36,915 bases of DNA from a virus. The stretch spans positions 1 to 36,915 of IMG/VR virus record IMGVR_UViG_3300028559_000101; one strand, written 5' to 3'. Each line of letters begins with the position of its first letter. Position 1 is the first letter of the stretch. Positions 1 to 36,915 of this stretch are shown here, piece after piece. A program made the position numbers and the translations under genes. Below the pieces are notes generated by a model. That model ran no database searches, had not been told where the DNA came from, and saw nothing but the letters and a program-made list of their open reading frames with translations.

Positions 1-348
1 AATGCACAGGTAAACGCTACGGCTGCTGTAGCGGCTCTTGGCGGCATGACATACTCAGGCTTTGCTGAGATCAATGCTAATGGCAATGTTGCGGTGCAAG
101 GTAGGTTAATTACCAGCGCCTTTGTACAGATTAGTGGCAATGCCTTGGTAGCTGCGAACGGATTTAAGTTTGGGCAAGAATGGTCAGTCGATTCAGCAGA
201 AGATGACACATGGACAACGCAAACGGCTGGTGATCCAAACTGGACTACGCAAAACGCTGGATCAGACACATGGACATCAGTAAACGCTGACTCTAATACT
301 TGGACAGAACAGAATACAGGGACTCAACAATGGCAACAACAAGGGTAA
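1..348 (+). CDS. Repeat-rich tail protein, C-terminal fragment (left copy)
   Basis: The reading frame is open from base 1, so the gene starts outside the window; the first ATG at 46 is internal. The visible 115 residues match the end of the complete gene at 34073-35038. The final part has short Trp repeats (DTWTTQ, NWTTQ, DTWTSV, NTWTEQ) and ends in a Gln-rich tail. It is probably a virion or tail surface protein, judged only from its position. The downstream gene starts inside its last codons. The first 45 bases differ clearly from the other copy, showing the copies are not a simple assembly overlap. Confidence 0.7.
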   Translation, partial: NAQVNATAAVAALGGMTYSGFAEINANGNVAVQGRLITSAFVQISGNALVAANGFKFGQEWSVDSAEDDTWTTQTAGDPNWTTQNAGSDTWTSVNADSNTWTEQNTGTQQWQQQG

Positions 349-1760
349 ACTTTACAGAATGGCTACCTGACCAGCCTGGCGTTGCTGGCGTAATGACAGA
401 AGCCAAGAATGTATATCCAATAGCGAATGGATATGGTGCTTTGCCGTTAGAGGTAAACCTGTCTGCCAATGCAAGCGAGAATCTAAACAACATCTTTGCC
501 GCCAAAAAGAACACTACAACATTATTGTTTGCCTCTGGCGCTACTAAGTTATTTCGCTATAACTCTGGGACTACTAACCTAACGGATGTGTCTAAGGCTG
601 GTGGATATACTACGGCAGCAGAAGATCGTACATTCTTTACCCAGTTTGGTAATGTGGTTCTTGCGGCTAATGGCGCAGATAAACTCCAAGCGTGGACTAT
701 TGGAACATCTACAGCATTTGCCGATGTGGCAGCAGCAGCGCCTACCGCAAAGTTTGTAACCGTAGTGCGTGATTTTGTAGTGTGCGCCAATACACCAGCA
801 AACCCTAACCGAGTATTCTGGTCTGATATTAACGATGAAACCGATTGGACACCAGGCGCAACAAGCCAATCTGATACACAAGACCTAGCCGATGGTGGCG
901 ATATTATGGGCTTGACTGGTGGCGAGTTTGGCTTACTGCTTACAGAGCGTTCAATCGTTCGTATGTCTTACATTGGAAGCCCGTTCTACTTTCAGTTTGA
1001 CTCCATTGCTAGGGGTCTTGGCTGTATTACAGGTAATAGCGTTGCCCAGTATGCAAGTACCACTTTCTTCTTGTCAGACGATGGTTTCTATAGCTGCGAT
1101 GGACAGGCAGTTAAAGCAATAGGCTCAGAAAAGGTAGATAAGTTCTTCTTTGCCGATGTAAACCTTAGTAAACTAAATGAGATGTCTTGTGCTGTAGACC
1201 CAGTTAAAAAGCTCGTTATTTGGAATTACACAGACACCTTTGCCGCTAAAAAGCAGTTAATTTATAACATTTTGCTAGGTAAATGGTCTTACGCAGAATC
1301 AACAGCCTCATACATTAACAATGTCTACACGCCTACACTTGCATTGGAAAGCCTAGATGTCTTTGGTACATTGGACTCATTAGGCGTTAGCTTAGACTCT
1401 CGCCAATGGGCTGGTGGCGCTTTGTTATTAGCTGGCGTATCAAGTGCAAGAGCCATCTCATTTACTGGCGCTAGAAAGACAGCATCGTTAATTACTGGTG
1501 ACTTTGGTATTCCTAACGGCAGATCAGTAGTAACCCTAGCTAGACCGATTATTGACAATGGATCAGGAAGTGTTGCCATTGCCTCTAGGGTAAACCTTGA
1601 TGACGCAATTACATTTGGTGATGCTGTGGCGGCTGATGATGAAAACAGGATTGGTCTGCGTTCTGCTGGTAGATACCATCGGATTAAGACTATCCCAAGC
1701 AGCTTATGGACTTCTGCCCTAGCCGTTGATGTAGATATTGCTCCGCAGGGAAATAGATAA
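330..1760 (+). CDS. Tail protein of 476 aa (left copy)
   Basis: Conserved podovirus-type tail/head-to-tail protein with repeated beta-strand-like blocks; no catalytic motif seen. I place the start at ATG 330 (protein begins MATTRVNFTEW). That codon is conserved in both copies and has AGGGA about 8 nt upstream, whereas the longer frame would start at a TTG here and an ATG in the other copy. Residues about 339-362 (LESLDVFGTLDSLGVSLDS) resemble a segment near the N-terminus of the upstream repeat protein, so the two neighbours share a module. It overlaps its upstream neighbour by 19 bases and its stop overlaps the next ATG (TAATG). The copy at 35020-36450 has the same length with scattered substitutions. 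Confidence 0.75.
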   Translation: MATTRVNFTEWLPDQPGVAGVMTEAKNVYPIANGYGALPLEVNLSANASENLNNIFAAKKNTTTLLFASGATKLFRYNSGTTNLTDVSKAGGYTTAAEDRTFFTQFGNVVLAANGADKLQAWTIGTSTAFADVAAAAPTAKFVTVVRDFVVCANTPANPNRVFWSDINDETDWTPGATSQSDTQDLADGGDIMGLTGGEFGLLLTERSIVRMSYIGSPFYFQFDSIARGLGCITGNSVAQYASTTFFLSDDGFYSCDGQAVKAIGSEKVDKFFFADVNLSKLNEMSCAVDPVKKLVIWNYTDTFAAKKQLIYNILLGKWSYAESTASYINNVYTPTLALESLDVFGTLDSLGVSLDSRQWAGGALLLAGVSSARAISFTGARKTASLITGDFGIPNGRSVVTLARPIIDNGSGSVAIASRVNLDDAITFGDAVAADDENRIGLRSAGRYHRIKTIPSSLWTSALAVDVDIAPQGNR

Positions 1761-2542
1761 TGTTTCGTACATTACCGAACTTTGGCTCTGATCCCCGAAA
1801 TGTGGCAGAGGTTGTCCGTCAAATTTTAAACGGCAAGACCAACAATACGGGTACGATTACATTAGCTACAGGAAACGCTACAACTACGATTTTGTACGAT
1901 GAGCGTATTAGCTCTGATACTAAGATTGTATTAGTGCCTTATTCTGCTAGTGCTTTTACAGACTCTATTCCGTATGGTGCGTTTCAAGACTCTACCGACC
2001 AAACGGCAGCAAGCACATCTGTTGCTTACCCAATGACCTTTAATACAACAGACTACTCCAATGGAGTTTATCTGTCTAACAGTAGTAGATTAAATGTTAG
2101 AAATGCTGGGGTTTATAACTTGCAATTCAGCGCACAGCTAGAAAATCAAGACAATAATCAGCATACGGTTGATATATGGTTTAGAAAGAATGGCACAAAC
2201 ATAGCTAATTCAAATAGTCAATTTACTGTACCTGCAAGAAAGAGCGCAAGCATTTTTGGTTATGTTATTGCGGCACTAAACTTCTTTGTAGAACTAGCGG
2301 CAAACGATTATGTAGAAATTGTGTGGAGAGCAGAAGATACTCTTGTTCGTATAGAGCAAACGGCAGCACAAACAAGCCCTACAAGACCAGCGACCCCATC
2401 TATTATTGCGACTATGCAAGCCATATCAGGCGGCAGTCTTAGTAATGTTTATGTCAGCGCCCAGACTCAGGGATCAGCAACAATTAGCCATTATTCCAAC
2501 AATACGGCAAATAAAACATACGGATATATTTTAGTTGGATAA
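1760..2542 (+). CDS. Tail appendage protein, possible C1q/TNF-like jelly roll
   Basis: 260-aa protein translated through a TAATG overlap with the preceding tail gene. The N-terminus (MFRTLPNFGSDPRNVAEVV) and a first domain with NTGTITL strands are followed from about residue 110 by a pattern of alternating strands (VYNLQFSAQLEN, HTVDIWFRKNG, NDYVEIVWRAED). I recognise this pattern as similar to C1q/TNF-like trimeric beta-sandwich heads in phage fibres. That assignment is by eye only. No signal peptide or membrane segment. The first 155 codons are repeated at the right end of the window, with most differences confined to the first 50 codons. Confidence 0.55.
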   Translation: MFRTLPNFGSDPRNVAEVVRQILNGKTNNTGTITLATGNATTTILYDERISSDTKIVLVPYSASAFTDSIPYGAFQDSTDQTAASTSVAYPMTFNTTDYSNGVYLSNSSRLNVRNAGVYNLQFSAQLENQDNNQHTVDIWFRKNGTNIANSNSQFTVPARKSASIFGYVIAALNFFVELAANDYVEIVWRAEDTLVRIEQTAAQTSPTRPATPSIIATMQAISGGSLSNVYVSAQTQGSATISHYSNNTANKTYGYILVG

Positions 2543-13151: not shown

Positions 13152-13339
13152 TTATAAATAACGCTACTGGTCTTTACCTCTGGAACAATGTCCTCTATGG
13201 ACTGGTTACAGATCGCACGAAAGTCGGCCCACTTCTTTTTGTAAAACTCTTGCTCACTAGCCGGAACATAGTTATACAGCTTTGCCCAACGAATAGTGAT
13301 GTCAACGCCTGATGCAGTCCAAACATAATTTTTATCCAT
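13136..13339 (-). CDS. 67-aa basic protein of unknown function
   Basis: Start taken at ATG 13339 (MDKNYVWTASGVDITIRWAK), which overlaps the end of the HNH gene by 8 nt. The longer frame to 13384 runs into that gene without a good start. The C-terminus is Lys-rich (YKWKKK). The GVDITIRWAKLYNYVPASEQ segment looks like a small conserved phage domain, possibly DNA-associated because of charge. Confidence 0.55.
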   Translation of the reverse strand: MDKNYVWTASGVDITIRWAKLYNYVPASEQEFYKKKWADFRAICNQSIEDIVPEVKTSSVIYKWKKK

Positions 13340-13823
13340 GATTTGCAAACTCCTTATGAAATTTATTTCTAGCTTCTTGGGCAACTAAATTAGCTAACTC
13401 TATATCATCAAAATACCCAAAATATTTTCTTTGCCCATTAACAAACATATTTACGCTATATTTTTTATCTCTCGAGTGCCAAACGACATTTTTATATCCA
13501 TTATGCGTTGATTTTTTCTTTCTATTTAAAGCGTTTTGTGATGCGCTTGCATCTCTTAAATTTTCAATTTTATTGTTTAATCCGTTTCCGTCTATATGAT
13601 CTATAAATTTTGGATAGTACCCATGGTGCATAGCAAATATGTATCTATGCAAGCCTCTAAATTTTTTTCCCAAAAATATTCCTTTATATCGCCCATACGC
13701 ATACCCTGCTGGTTGTAGCAATAATTTATTAGGCATATTTTTATGAGTTTTCTTTTTGTAATAAAGTTCTCCATCTTTATATTCAAATATTTCGTTTAAT
13801 TCATTTTGAGAATATTCGTTCAT
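13332..13823 (-). CDS. HNH homing endonuclease with AP2 DNA-binding domain (copy 1)
   Basis: 163 aa. The HNH core is LHRYIFAMHHGYYPKFIDHI, then DGNGLNNKIENLRDASASQN (about 58-100), with the metal-binding His-Asn pattern. A C-terminal AP2-like domain (HNGYKNVVWHSRDKKYSVNM, about 107-126, to about 160) is a usual DNA-binding partner in free-standing homing endonucleases. Codon use is more A/T-rich than the recombination genes around it, a sign of separate origin. Paralogous to 14051-14542. Confidence 0.88.
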   Translation of the reverse strand: MNEYSQNELNEIFEYKDGELYYKKKTHKNMPNKLLLQPAGYAYGRYKGIFLGKKFRGLHRYIFAMHHGYYPKFIDHIDGNGLNNKIENLRDASASQNALNRKKKSTHNGYKNVVWHSRDKKYSVNMFVNGQRKYFGYFDDIELANLVAQEARNKFHKEFANHG

Positions 13824-14033: not shown

Positions 14034-14050
14034 ACCTAACCGATCTATTT

Positions 14051-14542
14051 TTATCTTGCAAATTCGCCATGATATTTTTTTCTAGCCTCTGCCGCAACTA
14101 AACCAGCAAGCTCTAAATCATCAAAAGTTCCAATATGGACTGTCTTTCTGCCAACCATCAAAGAAACCCTCCATTTTTTATACGCCTTATGCCAGTAAAC
14201 ATTTCTATGTCCGCTTGTGTTTTTGTCATCTAATCGCTTGTTTAAAGCGTTTTGTGATTTTGTTGCAGGCCGTAAATTAGCAATAAGATTGTTTAGTCTG
14301 TTTCCGTCTATATGGTCTATGTACTGAGGCAAATAACCGTGATGCAATAAATACACTAATCTATGCGCCTGGTATCTTGTGCCGTTAAAAACAATGCTGC
14401 AATAGCCGCTATTTAAAATAGACCCAGCTTTAGTGCCTGCTTTAATTTTTCCGACATTTTGTTTCCAATACAGATCTCCATCCTTGTAATCAAACAAAGA
14501 TTTCACCTGGTCTTGAGTTAGTGTAGAATTTTGCGTAGCCAT
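14051..14542 (-). CDS. HNH homing endonuclease with AP2 DNA-binding domain (copy 2)
   Basis: 163 aa from ATG 14542, with AGGA 8 nt upstream; the longer frame would need a TTG. The HNH block is AHRLVYLLHHGYLPQYIDHI and DGNRLNNLIANLRPATKSQN, with an AP2-like C-terminal domain (SGHRNVYWHKAYKKWRVSLM and on). Strongly similar to the HNH protein 230 bp downstream. Flanked upstream by an intact zinc-ribbon gene and downstream by a relic of the same gene. Such genes spread by cutting phages that lack them. Confidence 0.9.
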   Translation of the reverse strand: MATQNSTLTQDQVKSLFDYKDGDLYWKQNVGKIKAGTKAGSILNSGYCSIVFNGTRYQAHRLVYLLHHGYLPQYIDHIDGNRLNNLIANLRPATKSQNALNKRLDDKNTSGHRNVYWHKAYKKWRVSLMVGRKTVHIGTFDDLELAGLVAAEARKKYHGEFAR

Positions 14543-18014: not shown

Positions 18015-18250
18015 AAACAATCAAGTGGTCTGGCACTATTCTTTGTTTGTTTGGCATATTGTTGACTGCGCTAAACATTTACCCAGCCAACATCGTAATA
18101 GGTTTTATTGGCTCAACATTATGGGCGATTGCTGGATACGCTCAAGACGATATGGCCTTGTTTACTGTAGAGATCGTAGCAGTTGCTTTTTACTTTGCAG
18201 GCATTGTATTATTTGTAACTACTCAATTATCTAAGTGGGGGCTTATATGA
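18011..18250 (+). CDS. Small membrane protein with three helices
   Basis: 79 aa from ATG 18011. After MKTIKWSG come three hydrophobic segments (about 9-24, 28-45 and 52-74, including ANIVIGFIGSTLWAIAGYAQ and VEIVAVAFYFAGIVLFVTTQ). I recall similar PnuC-like or YgjV-like short membrane proteins in phages but cannot assign transport. Overlaps both neighbours by 4 nt. Confidence 0.55.
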   Translation: MKTIKWSGTILCLFGILLTALNIYPANIVIGFIGSTLWAIAGYAQDDMALFTVEIVAVAFYFAGIVLFVTTQLSKWGLI

Positions 18251-18633
18251 GTTTTGATGAGTTGTGGGGGATGTATCCTAGAAAGGTAGCAAAGCGAGTG
18301 GCGCAAAAGGCTTTTGAGCGCCTTACACAAGCAGAACAGGCATTGGCATTGGCTACCATGCCAAACCACTTAGCCTACTGGAAAGCAAACGATACGCAAC
18401 TTGCGTACATACCGCATTTAGCCACCTTTTTGAACCAATACAGGTTTGAGGATGAAATCGTTATTGAACCGCCAAAAGTAAACAAGCGCCCAGAATTGCC
18501 TTGGTACAGTTCGGAAGAATTAACAGCACGAAAAGCAAGTGAGATTGGATGCCCAGCTTACGCTGGCGAGGGCTGGCAGCAATGGAGAGCTAGGATTAGC
18601 AATAAGATTAAACAACTAGAGGAGCAGGCTTGA
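18247..18633 (+). CDS. Replication/helicase-loader-like protein
   Basis: 128 aa. The block FDELWGMYPRKVAKRVAQKA, then FERLTQAEQALAL and YIPHLATFLNQYRFEDE (about 2-77) is the conserved C-terminal domain of phage O-type/DnaT-like replication proteins. The N-terminal origin-binding part of lambda-O-type proteins is absent. Start ATG 18247 follows GGGGG by 6 nt and overlaps the preceding TGA. It probably recruits host helicase to the phage origin. Confidence 0.65.
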   Translation: MSFDELWGMYPRKVAKRVAQKAFERLTQAEQALALATMPNHLAYWKANDTQLAYIPHLATFLNQYRFEDEIVIEPPKVNKRPELPWYSSEELTARKASEIGCPAYAGEGWQQWRARISNKIKQLEEQA

Positions 18634-19352
18634 ACTACTTATCCGTATGCTCCGGCATAGAAGCGGCAACCGTAGCCTGGCATCACATGGGATGGAATCC
18701 AATAGCATTTAGTGAAATAGAAAAATTCCCATCACAAGTTTTAGCACATCATTATCCTAATGTGCCTAATTTAGGGGATATGACAAAATATAAGGAATGG
18801 GAATTAAGTGAACCAATTGACATTTTGGTCGGAGGAACTCCCTGCCAATCATTCAGCGTTGCAGGCTTGCGTAAAGGACTTGACGATCCAAGAGGCAACC
18901 TCGCTCTTACCTATGTGGGAATTCTTGACAAATTTAGACCCAAGTGGTGCATTTGGGAAAATGTGCCAGGTGTCCTCAGTTCTGGGGGGGGGCGAGATTT
19001 TGGCAGTTTCCTCGGTGCGTTGGGGGAGGTCGGGTATGGGTGGGCCTATAGGGTGCTTGACGCTCAATACTTTGGAGTACCACAAAGACGCAGACGAGTG
19101 TTTGTTGTCGGATGTCTTGGAGATTGGAAATCTGCCGCAGAAGTATTATTTGAGTCAGAAAGCCTGTCAGGGAATACTCAGAAGGGCAGAAAAAAGGGGC
19201 AAGATCCTGCCGCCTTTACTGCGAGTAGCTTTGGAAGCTACAGCGAGGGAGTTGGAACAATTAGGGCAGCAGGAGGAGATTTAGGTGGCGGTTCTGAAAC
19301 GCTTTATGTGCCTGATGTTGCAAACCGTCTGCAAACTTCTTGCGGTGACTAA
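18630..19352 (+). CDS. Cytosine-5 DNA methyltransferase, catalytic N-terminal part
   Basis: 240 aa from TTG 18630, with GAGGAG 5 nt upstream. SAM-binding motif I SVCSGIEAATVAW (5-17), catalytic motif IV GGTPCQSFSVAG with Cys72, motif VI WENVPG (109-114) and motif VIII VPQRRRRVF (150-158) are all intact. The chain stops at an in-frame TAA (19350-19352). The same frame continues past it as expected linker sequence (ADGFNMVAYETHP) to a G9 tract, where the frame is lost. The C-terminal motifs IX-X are in 19451-20026. Alone, this part lacks much of the target-recognition region. A G9 tract (18984-18992) encodes Gly119-121. Confidence 0.8.
   Translation: MNYLSVCSGIEAATVAWHHMGWNPIAFSEIEKFPSQVLAHHYPNVPNLGDMTKYKEWELSEPIDILVGGTPCQSFSVAGLRKGLDDPRGNLALTYVGILDKFRPKWCIWENVPGVLSSGGGRDFGSFLGALGEVGYGWAYRVLDAQYFGVPQRRRRVFVVGCLGDWKSAAEVLFESESLSGNTQKGRKKGQDPAAFTASSFGSYSEGVGTIRAAGGDLGGGSETLYVPDVANRLQTSCGD
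18808..19284 (+). CDS. Overlapping 158-aa frame inside the methyltransferase gene
   Basis: Frame +1 relative to the methyltransferase, GTG start with AAGGA/GGGA upstream, open for 158 codons. It begins MNQLTFWSEELPANHSALQA and its last third is KYYLSQKACQGILRRAEKRG, then KILPPLLRVALEATA. I recall the block KACxGILRRAEKRGKxLPxLL from phage hypothetical proteins encoded over or beside cytosine methyltransferases. It may be a true overprinted gene or a widely annotated shadow frame. The G9 tract at 18984 lies in both frames (here LGGGEIL), so slippage there could connect them. Confidence 0.4.
   Translation: MNQLTFWSEELPANHSALQACVKDLTIQEATSLLPMWEFLTNLDPSGAFGKMCQVSSVLGGGEILAVSSVRWGRSGMGGPIGCLTLNTLEYHKDADECLLSDVLEIGNLPQKYYLSQKACQGILRRAEKRGKILPPLLRVALEATARELEQLGQQEEI
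18984..18992 (+). repeat. G9 homopolymer tract 1 in the methyltransferase gene
   Basis: Nine consecutive G, read as Gly119-Gly121 in the methyltransferase frame. In frame here. Loss of one G would move translation into the overlapping 158-aa frame. Confidence 0.9.
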
Positions 19353-19450
19353 ATAAGGGCTGATGGATTTAATATGGTTGCATACGAAACTCACCCAGCA
19401 GATAGTAGAATTAAGGAAATGGGCGATGTTTGTCAAACCGTTACTAGTAG

Positions 19451-20026
19451 ATGGGGAACGGGGGGGGGAATGTGCCGATAGTGCAAAATGTAGCAGTTGG
19501 CGCATTTGGTAAAAATATTTCTGATACAGTTACGGCTAAATTTGCAAAGGGCGCAGAATTATTGCAACAAGGCGCACAAAATGGTGGTAATTGTGTATTG
19601 CAGCCAATCCCAATACATGACCAGGCAACAAGGTTTAGTTTAGAACAAACACCAACATTAAGAGCTAATATGGGTGATAACCAAGTTTCAGTTGCGTATA
19701 GCATAAGAGAAGATGCTACTGCAAACAATTTTAGTGCTACACCATTGGAAGTTACCCCAGCGTTGCAACCATTAAGACCGTTTGTGCAAAGCCATCACGC
19801 TCAAACATTTATTGCTAGTGATTATGCAGTACGCAGACTTACGCCAACAGAATGTGAACGATTACAAGGATTTCCAGATAACTACACTAACATTAAAGAA
19901 AATTGTGCAGATGGCCAAAGATATAAGGCGCTAGGCAATTCAATGGCAGTACCAGTAATGAGGTGGATAGGTGAACGAATCAATCAACACGAGCAGCGAG
20001 GAATGGAGAAACATTTGCGAGGCTAA
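19451..20026 (+). pseudogene. Cytosine-5 methyltransferase, C-terminal part in a shifted frame
   Basis: 191 codons in the frame reached from the N-terminal part if the G9 tract (19460-19468) held ten G. It contains the final methyltransferase motifs: DYAVRRLTPTECERLQGFPD (motif IX region) and QRYKALGNSMAVPVMRWIGE (motif X). The ATG at 19451 has no good RBS, so separate translation is doubtful. Together with the TAA at 19350 this marks a broken gene, a consensus error in the assembly, or a phase-off allele. Confidence 0.7.
19460..19468 (+). repeat. G9 homopolymer tract 2 at the methyltransferase frameshift
   Basis: Nine G exactly at the point where the methyltransferase frame is lost. Ten G would read TGGGNVPIVQ and rejoin the C-terminal part. 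Confidence 0.9.
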
Positions 20027-34072: not shown

Positions 34073-35038
34073 ATGCCATATAGCCTAGAGCAGTTAGATG
34101 TCTATGGCTCTATAGAAAATGTACCTTATTCGTTAGATAACAGTTTTTATGATGGTAAGGTATGTGGACCTTGGACATTAGAACAGCTAGATAACTTTGG
34201 CAGCTTAGATAGCTTAACGCTGTCGCTGGACTCAGACTTATGGGTTTCAGCCGCCTGTATTAACTTAGCCAATGTTTCTATAGATGCTAATGCAATCTTG
34301 CTCGCCTCGGCAGAGCGTACATTAGTCGGTCAAGCCCAAATCAATGGTAACTTATATGTTACTAGCGAAGGCATACGATTAGCCAACGCAAACGCTGAGA
34401 TAAACGGCGCAGCATCAGTAGACGCATTAGGCAGCGCACTTAGAACTGCAAACATACAAATAACAGGTAATGCCAACTTAGACGGTAATGCAAGTGCATT
34501 GCGTAGCGGACTGGCTGAGATAGTTTGTAGCGCCAATGTAGCTACAAATGGGGTATATATTGCTAGTGCAGAAGTGGCTATAAACGGCTCTGCAAGCCTT
34601 TCTAGTGGCTCGACAAGGGTTGTGTACTTTGATGCCGCAATAAACGCCACAGCAAGCGTTGAGAGCGATTCTATACGGGTTGCTTTAGCTAATGCACAAT
34701 TAAACGGCACAGGATCAATGGCAGGTCTTGGCGGCATGACATACTCAGGCTTTGCCGAGATCAATGCTAGTGGTAATGTTGCGGTGCAAGGTAGGTTAAT
34801 TACCAGCGCCTTTGTACAGATTAGTGGCAATGCCTTGGTAGCTGCGAACGGATTTAAGTTTGGGCAAGAATGGTCAATCGATTCAGCAGAAGATGACACA
34901 TGGACAACGCAAACGGCTGGCGATACCAACTGGACTACGCAAAACGCTGGATCAGACACATGGACATCAGTAAACGCTGACTCTAACACATGGACAGTAC
35001 AGAATACAGGGACTCAACAATGGCAACAACAAGGGTAA
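34073..35038 (+). CDS. Repeat-rich tail protein, 321 aa (complete, right copy)
   Basis: The N-terminal 58 residues contain LEQLDNFGSLDSLTLSLDSD, resembling a segment of the 476-aa neighbour. From about 60 to 265 there are roughly ten repeats of about 20 residues with the core A-x-I/L-x-N/G-G/A-x-A-x-V (for example ANAEINGAASVDALGSALRT and ANAQLNGTGSMAGLGGMTYS), suggesting a beta-helix or solenoid. The last 50 residues have the Trp repeats DTWTTQ, NWTTQ, DTWTSV and NTWTVQ and a Gln tail. Probably a fibre or tail surface protein. The left window end holds the last 115 codons of a variant copy. Confidence 0.7.
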   Translation: MPYSLEQLDVYGSIENVPYSLDNSFYDGKVCGPWTLEQLDNFGSLDSLTLSLDSDLWVSAACINLANVSIDANAILLASAERTLVGQAQINGNLYVTSEGIRLANANAEINGAASVDALGSALRTANIQITGNANLDGNASALRSGLAEIVCSANVATNGVYIASAEVAINGSASLSSGSTRVVYFDAAINATASVESDSIRVALANAQLNGTGSMAGLGGMTYSGFAEINASGNVAVQGRLITSAFVQISGNALVAANGFKFGQEWSIDSAEDDTWTTQTAGDTNWTTQNAGSDTWTSVNADSNTWTVQNTGTQQWQQQG

Positions 35039-36450
35039 ACTTTACAGAATGGCTACCTGACCAGCCTGGCGTTGCTGGTGTAATGACAGAGGCTAAGAAT
35101 GTATATCCTGTTGCTAATGGGTATTCTGCCTTGCCTTTAGAAACCAACCTGTCTAACGCTGCAAGCGAAAACTTAACAAACATCTTTGCCGCCAAAAAGA
35201 ACGCTGTATCTTCTTTGTTTTGCTCTGGCATGACTAAGCTGTTTAGATACAATTCTGCCAATAACAATCTAGTTGATGTGTCTAAGTCTGGTGGGTATTC
35301 AACCGCTACAAGTGAGCGTTTTTACTTTACTCAATTTGGTAATGTTGTTATTGCAGCCAATGGCGCAAATAAGTTACAAGGATGGACATTAGGATCGTCT
35401 AGTGCATTTGCTGATCTAAACGCTGCTGCTCCAACAGCACGATATGTAACCGTAGTACGGGACTTTGTAGTGGCTGCTAATACTGTTACTTATCCTAACC
35501 GTGTTTATTGGTCTGATATTAACGATGAAACCGATTGGACATCAGGCGCAGGGAGTCAGTCTGATACGCAAGATATAGCAGACGGTGGCGATGTAATGGG
35601 CATTACAGGTGGCGAGTTTGGCTTAATCTTGATGGAGCGCTCGATTGTTCGTATGAGCTACATTGGTTCGCCATTCTTCTTTCAGTTTGACTCTATCGCT
35701 AGAGGATTAGGCTGTATTACGCCTAACTCAGTAGGTCAGTACGCATCCGTTACCTTCTTCTTGTCAGACGATGGTTTCTATAGTTGCGATGGTCAATCAG
35801 TTAAGCCGATTGGCACAGAAAAGGTAGATAAGTTTTTCTTTTCGGATGTAAATCTAAATAAGCTAGACGAGATGTCAGTTGCAGTAGACCCTCTTAAAAA
35901 GCTGGTTATTTGGAACTACACAGACAACTTTGCGACTAAAAAGCAGTTGATTTATAACATCACGCTTGGTCGTTGGTCTTATGCAGAAACATCAGCTAAC
36001 TTTATTAACAATGTCTATACCCCATCTACCGCTTTAGAAAGCCTAGATTTGTTTGGAACATTAGACTCATTAGGCGTTAGTTTAGACTCTCGCCAATGGG
36101 CTGGTGGTGCGCTATTGCTGGCTGGCGTATCAGGCAATCGAGCAATATCCTTTACTGGAGCGAGAAAGACCGCATCTTTAATTACGGGTGATTTTGCCTT
36201 AACTAATGCTCAGTCTTTGGTTACGCTTGCTAGACCCATTATTGATGGCGGCTCTGGATCAGTAGCTATTGCTTCACGCCTAAACCTAGACGATGGACTA
36301 ACTTTCTCTAGCCCAGTAGCGGCAGACGCAGAGAACAGAATAGGCTTACGATCTTCTGGTCGGTATCACCGTATTCGTACAATTCCTAGCGGATTGTGGA
36401 ACTTTGCCCTTGCTGTAGATGTAGATATTGCACAACAAAGCACACGATAA
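35020..36450 (+). CDS. Tail protein of 476 aa (right copy)
   Basis: Same length and domain order as 330-1760, with the start at ATG 35020 (MATTRVNFTEW) and AGGGA upstream. Differences from the left copy are mostly conservative and spread over the protein. Blocks such as RSIVRMSYIGSPF, FFLSDDGFYSCDGQ and FGTLDSLGVSLDSRQWAGGA are unchanged. This supports a constrained structural role. It overlaps the repeat protein by 19 nt and the next gene by TAATG. Confidence 0.75.
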   Translation: MATTRVNFTEWLPDQPGVAGVMTEAKNVYPVANGYSALPLETNLSNAASENLTNIFAAKKNAVSSLFCSGMTKLFRYNSANNNLVDVSKSGGYSTATSERFYFTQFGNVVIAANGANKLQGWTLGSSSAFADLNAAAPTARYVTVVRDFVVAANTVTYPNRVYWSDINDETDWTSGAGSQSDTQDIADGGDVMGITGGEFGLILMERSIVRMSYIGSPFFFQFDSIARGLGCITPNSVGQYASVTFFLSDDGFYSCDGQSVKPIGTEKVDKFFFSDVNLNKLDEMSVAVDPLKKLVIWNYTDNFATKKQLIYNITLGRWSYAETSANFINNVYTPSTALESLDLFGTLDSLGVSLDSRQWAGGALLLAGVSGNRAISFTGARKTASLITGDFALTNAQSLVTLARPIIDGGSGSVAIASRLNLDDGLTFSSPVAADAENRIGLRSSGRYHRIRTIPSGLWNFALAVDVDIAQQSTR

Positions 36451-36915
36451 TGTTTAGAACGCTACCCCAATTTGGATCAGACCCTCGAAATGTAGCCGAG
36501 ATTGTCCGTCAGATTATGAACGGTAAGACCAACAATACGGGTACGATTACATTAGCTACAGGTAACGCAACAACGACAACGCTGTTTGATGAGCGTATAA
36601 GTCCTGATACTAAGATTGTATTAGTGCCTTATTCTGCTAGTGCTTTTACAGACTCTATTCCGTATGGTGCGTTTCAAGACTCTACCGACCAAGCGGCAGC
36701 AAGCACATCTGTTGCTTACCCAATGACCTTTAATACAACAGACTACTCCAATGGGGTTTATCTGTCCAATAGCAGTAGATTAAATGTAAGAAATGCTGGG
36801 GTTTATAACTTGCAATTCAGCGCACAGCTAGAAAATCAAGACAATAATCAGCATACGGTTGATATATGGTTTAGAAAGAATGGCACAAACATAGCTAATT
36901 CAAATAGTCAATTTA
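36450..36915 (+). CDS. Tail appendage protein, N-terminal fragment (right copy)
   Basis: First 155 codons of the variant of 1760-2542, cut by the window end. Codons 1-50 differ from the left copy mainly at silent sites; from about 36600 on, the DNA is nearly identical. No stop inside the fragment. Confidence 0.7.
   Translation, partial: MFRTLPQFGSDPRNVAEIVRQIMNGKTNNTGTITLATGNATTTTLFDERISPDTKIVLVPYSASAFTDSIPYGAFQDSTDQAAASTSVAYPMTFNTTDYSNGVYLSNSSRLNVRNAGVYNLQFSAQLENQDNNQHTVDIWFRKNGTNIANSNSQF

Follow-up and report, generated by a model that had tools for sequence, protein, structure and literature searches.

Why would a phage cytosine methyltransferase gene carry two runs of nine guanines and lose its reading frame exactly at one of them? 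The question is raised by a locus in the IMG/VR virus record IMGVR_UViG_3300028559_000101 (36,915 bases, analyzed at full length and referred to here as the window), which encodes terminase, portal, scaffold and virion proteins. A first-pass annotation, made from the sequence by itself, had placed both runs in this gene and suspected phase variation. Having compared the gene with its relatives, we lean towards the view that it belongs to a family of slippage-switched (phase-variable) phage C5-methyltransferases, orphan enzymes with exchangeable modules in which poly-G tracts would serve as contingency loci. The suspicion holds up for the gene family, as length differences that affect the frame are seen in several relatives and also in three further families of DNA-modification genes. 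For the window copy it holds in part, because the gene also contains a TAA codon, a lesion of another kind that slippage could not undo.

A methyltransferase gene divided between two frames

The gene lies on the plus strand. Its first open reading frame (ORF; 18630..19352) begins with a TTG codon at 18630, preceded by AGGAG at 18620-18624, and stops, as had been noted, at a TAA at 19350-19352. The 240 encoded amino acids comprise the catalytic core through motif VIII and the start of the variable region, and match PF00145 (Pfam DNA_methylase; E = 3.9e-44, profile positions 1-167) and TIGR00675. A distal ORF in the -1 frame (19451..20026, plus strand, 191 amino acids) holds the rest of the variable region together with motifs IX-X, and also matches PF00145 (E = 1.5e-13, profile positions 269-323). 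The catalytic motifs of a C5-cytosine methyltransferase are thus all carried, in agreement with the first-pass annotation, though they are divided between two frames by the TAA and by a change of frame at 19460-19468.

The first G9 run, which we call T1 (18984..18992, plus strand), lies in the catalytic part directly after the ENV motif, codes the GGG of SSGGGRDF and is in frame. The second, T3 (19460..19468, plus strand), is indeed the place where the frame is lost: it is -1 out of frame relative to all frame-intact relatives, and the homologous continuation lies in the -1 frame beyond it. Frame-intact relatives read G10 after AC, or A plus G9, at this site, so the earlier inference that ten Gs would restore the frame was right. 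Between the two lesions the first frame is open again (19353..19466, plus strand), is homologous to the relatives and contains an in-frame ATG at 19374. As read, the gene would yield no full-length enzyme and, given the nature of the TAA, tract length alone could not restore one, as had been pointed out.

The window has no further G or C run of eight or more. Its four overlapping octamers compare with 0.30 expected, and none of 100 shuffles reached four, which bears out the remark that two such runs are striking for this genome. Among the window genes checked, 32 of 598 glycine codons are GGG. The protein does not require poly-G, since other relatives code the same glycines by GGC, GGT or GGA.

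Tract lengths vary among relatives and shift the frame

A comparison with homologues in related phages had been recommended beforehand. We first fetched 80 viral IMG/VR contigs whose catalytic parts are 71-95% identical, and gathered further relatives by means of tract patterns and by means of the neighbouring gene, the latter without selection for tracts. Tract lengths, their frame effects and the restriction of tracts to particular genes were all read from assembled metagenome contigs. Three tract sites exist in the family. At T1, found after the ENV motif in SS-GGG-RDF, 33 of 35 pattern-found contigs have G9, while the remaining two (L090 and L118) have G10 and are out of frame, so the tract that is in frame in the window is broken elsewhere. 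T2 lies in the recognition-region module VAGGGKLIM, which is absent from the window; it is in frame as G10, as G9 plus C or, in L053, as G12 after A, and out of frame as G11 (L043) or G7 plus C (L090). T3 belongs to the module TVTSxWGTGGGNVP, and its out-of-frame G9 occurs in the window only.

One near-identical pair, L026 and L090, is 99.8% identical over 2142 bp, with two substitutions and with indels only at T1 (9 vs 10) and T2 (9 vs 7). The contig of L026 stops just at T3, and the first base of L089 is the first G of T2; breaks of this kind are to be expected when heterogeneity or poor reads confront an assembler. L043/L086 and L089 share an out-of-frame T2, possibly from the same reads, and were not counted as independent.

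We then surveyed the frames of 58 distinct genes of the modular methyltransferase, 26 of them full-length with a tract and 28 full-length without. Broken frames were found in four tract-bearing genes (the window, L043, L090 and L118) and in none of the tract-free ones (p = 0.047), leaving a continuous single frame in 22/26 and 28/28, respectively. Tracts occupy about 2% of the gene, yet they hold all five frameshifts of the four broken genes; the rough chance of this is 8e-9, assuming independence.

Poly-G tracts concentrate in DNA-modification genes

In the first-fetched contigs, 54 G/C runs of eight or more fall in methyltransferase DNA (123 kb) and two outside it (634 kb), both in PP-loop genes. 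When distinct run contexts were counted over all viral loci gathered by then, 34 were in C5-methyltransferase DNA, eight in PP-loop genes and nine elsewhere, five of these nine in a phrog_757 DNA methyltransferase and two in another C5-methyltransferase with overlapping products. Such runs are very rare in these phages outside genes of the DNA-modification type.

The PP-loop genes belong to the PAPS-reductase family (PF01507, phrog_424) and match SspD of DNA phosphorothioation (PADLOC). Their tracts are at L104:1857, L200:2022, L203:2019, L208:2005, L226:2012, L095:2302, L132:3144, L271:2352, L273:1011 and L274:1440, several of them at PP-loop glycines. In the PP-loop protein search, tracts at these glycines kept the frame in L200 and L203 and broke it in L208 and L226; in a second subfamily, L095 is in frame and L132 is out of frame at the tract. 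In the phrog_757 methyltransferase, which mostly occupies the genome position of the window gene behind the same upstream gene, the tracts are near the N-terminus (L121:4450, L128:4451, L149:1420, L162:4453 and L272:960), and the G8 of L162 is out of frame. Finally, a second C5-methyltransferase cassette codes two products in overlapping frames across one tract (L122:4649, L124:4649, L136, L140:2765, L151:4652 and L154). Both products are intact in the contigs with G10 (L122, L140 and L154) and both are broken in those with G9 (L124, L136 and L151). L140 and L151, aligned over 1461 bases at 92.5% identity, have a single indel between them, at the tract.

Taking the four families together, the frame is lost in 11 of 46 tract-bearing genes, in each case at the tract, and in none of the tract-free homologues, which number at least 86 (Fisher p = 3.9e-6). 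This value is to be taken as a guide only, since members of one family share ancestry and the contigs were collected around these very genes. Three tract-free PP-loop genes, L268, L278 and L241, seemed interrupted at first, an effect of the motif test or of a contig end. We give even odds to a wider reading, a 'phasome' limited to DNA-modification genes in environmental tailed phages. Poly-G tracts would have arisen independently in at least four families (modular C5, overlapping-frame C5, phrog_757 and PAPS-reductase/SspD-like), most of them at conserved glycines within or close to catalytic motifs, with slippage and module exchange combined in the modular enzyme and one cassette tract switching two overlapping genes.

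A mosaic of putative recognition modules

Between the catalytic core and motifs IX-X, the modular enzyme is a mosaic of blocks of about 20-45 residues. We found 36 block orders (19 seeds) among 48 distinct variable regions, with the same block at different positions. The window's own modules (VGAFGKNI..., a TPTLRANMGDNQ-type block and AYSIREDATANNF...; 19490..19813, plus strand) occur in relatives in other orders. Moreover, whole blocks differ between genes whose cores are at least 98% identical (L041/L042, L037/L038, L018/L024 and L011/L078), which suggests that recognition modules are exchanged rapidly among near-identical cores. Their position between the core and the last motifs is what leads us to regard the modules as putative recognition domains. 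Because T2 and T3 lie inside blocks, a switch could move with its block. Another pair with near-identical cores, L059/L061, likewise differs by gain, loss or replacement of whole modules. An AlphaFold2 model of the intact L024 protein (19 sequences) had a mean predicted local distance difference test (pLDDT) score of 48, below 50 in the variable region, and was not used for module structure or fold search.

The state of the window copy

In the recognition-region module that contains the TAA, the window has SCGD*IRADGF where relatives have SCNDYSRADGF. The codons around the TAA (GGTGACTAAATAAGG) differ from those of relatives (e.g. AATGATTACAGTAGA) at several positions, and for this reason an error in calling a single base is unlikely. 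When the collection was scanned for other carriers of this allele, none was found among the contigs. A reassigned genetic code was rejected, as 15 of the 18 window genes checked end in TAA.

The ratio of nonsynonymous to synonymous substitution rates (dN/dS), taken against the closest comparable relatives, is 0.09-0.20 for the catalytic part and 0.07-0.10 for the distal part (the latter against L018 and L024). Values near 0.1 before and after the lesions imply that both halves of the gene were constrained until recently. Our preferred reading of the window copy is an allele that is OFF at T3, carries a nonsense codon as well and is probably being lost.

The two ends of the window (1-2225 and 34691-36915) are 82% identical over 2.2 kb and both code a phrog_3287 virion protein. 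This may be a diverged duplication of the virion gene, or a composite or assembly that ran past the full circle into another strain. As the window may join two strains, the linkage of the TAA and the T3 lesion on one molecule is provisional.

A proposed slippage switch weighed against its alternatives

How could such a gene work? In the mechanism that we propose, a phage orphan C5-cytosine methyltransferase would combine one fixed catalytic core with an array of exchangeable recognition modules, some of which would bring a tract along as they travel. Replication slippage would add or remove Gs; an out-of-frame T1 would truncate the protein before motifs V-X, an out-of-frame T2 or T3 before IX-X, and in either case no enzyme would be made until further slippage brought it back. 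The likely use would be bet-hedging, with methylation ON against host restriction and OFF whenever the mark would be of no use or would do harm. We infer that slippage takes place in vivo, that it is reversible and that it benefits the phage. The genes share what is usually found in phase-variable ones, namely a homopolymer in the coding sequence beyond chance and, on the contigs, length differences between close relatives that shift the frame (L026/L090; L118, L043 and the window; L140/L151).

Several points weigh against a switch. Every tract length comes from metagenome contigs, where long G runs are error-prone. T1 is nearly constant, so that most copies would be ON and the variation is modest, and the invariance of its fourfold sites is ordinary for its surroundings, the core itself being conserved at the DNA level. 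The TAA of the window is no product of slippage, and the case is drawn from sequence rather than from phenotype or methylation. Hence, one could argue that the tracts are real glycine-coding runs whose out-of-frame lengths reflect errors of sequencing, amplification by PCR (polymerase chain reaction) or assembly, the enzymes being always on. This is the main rival, and it can point to the difficulty of G9-G12 runs for short-read chemistry, to the one contig that starts and the one that ends at a tract, and to the 35 of 46 tracts that are in frame. Still, we judge it unlikely: the change from G9 to G7 at T2 between L026 and L090 is one of two bases at moderate length, the window also has a lesion outside homopolymers, and errors leave the concentration of tracts in DNA-modification genes unexplained. 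This same confinement, found in four families, would be unexpected of a purely mutational process, and makes it quite improbable that the runs are a by-product of glycine codons expanding locally, which would make them hypermutable yet of no adaptive value, even if in-frame expansion is observed (four glycines at T2 of L053).

The window copy could also be an ordinary decaying gene, no longer needed, that acquired a nonsense mutation and a slippage deletion and never switched. Two independent lesions and the several base changes around the TAA, found in the window contig alone, speak for decay, and we treat it as a real possibility, if short of an even chance. With only two lesions in 465 codons and such low dN/dS on both sides, it would be recent at most, and it leaves the family-wide tract pattern unexplained. 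As regards the window copy itself, decay is compatible with the slippage switch. Alternatively, the two ORFs could make a split enzyme, the distal ORF being translated separately, as in the two-subunit C5-methyltransferase M.AquI (PMC3404938). The break between the window's ORFs falls at nearly the same point of the enzyme as in M.AquI, which makes this anatomically possible, purifying selection acts on both halves, and the ATG at 19374 follows the TAA in frame. However, a product from 19374 would still hit the frame change at T3, and the second ORF lacks an evident start signal, no convincing ribosome-binding site preceding 19451. Frame-intact relatives are single ORFs, the same split appears in no other contig and the second part is not conserved as a gene of its own, all of which makes a split enzyme very improbable indeed.

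Relation to known systems

Homopolymer slippage is a well-documented cause of phase variation in the restriction-modification genes of bacteria. In H. pylori HPK5, for example, a type III methyltransferase has a G9 tract (PMC12003011). As in these bacterial genes, a G tract lies in the coding region, and a one-base change in its length toggles between a full-length and a truncated protein. The genes described here differ in being phage-encoded and of the C5-cytosine type, with up to three tracts per gene, some in exchangeable modules, and are known from contigs rather than clones. Among phage enzymes, the multispecific C5-methyltransferases of Bacillus phages are of the SPbeta and phi3T type. 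Enzymes of this kind are cited in PMC4190342. They resemble the modular enzyme in having a single catalytic core and a long variable region that seemingly holds several recognition modules, while the modules found here outnumber theirs, are unrelated to them by name and, as their distribution suggests, are freely exchanged among close relatives. We know of no G tracts in the Bacillus phage enzymes.

Totally overlapping C5-methyltransferase genes have been described in Streptococcus thermophilus 5093-group phages (PMC5601072). The cassette of L122, L124, L140, L151 and L154, which is not the window's gene, is similar in coding two methyltransferase-like products in overlapping frames, and differs in that one G tract reframes both. 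A text search of open-access articles, which was not exhaustive, returned no description of poly-G phase variation in phage-encoded modification genes. If the proposed switch is real, a phage would be gambling with the marks on its own DNA, much as bacteria do with restriction. This would matter for the way in which phages keep up with hosts that switch and for the abundance of orphan methyltransferases in phage genomes, and 'broken' methyltransferases in viral assemblies should then not be written off as pseudogenes.

Genomic neighbourhood and host hint

A scan of a genome collection gave eight bacterial loci, mostly betaproteobacterial and too distant for naming a host. A methyltransferase relative with 81% identity (L192) has G7 and G8 runs (L192:5661 and 5834) on a contig whose bin is an uncultured betaproteobacterium; the contig may derive from a phage or prophage and gives a hint at the host group.

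Scans for promoters and terminators gave chance-level results only. The gene upstream of the methyltransferase (18235..18633, plus strand, 132 amino acids, function not assigned) has a stop that overlaps the methyltransferase start, an arrangement kept in relatives, which makes it a syntenic anchor. Elsewhere in the window there is a 285-base direct repeat (13328-13604 vs 14047-14320) with 69% identity.
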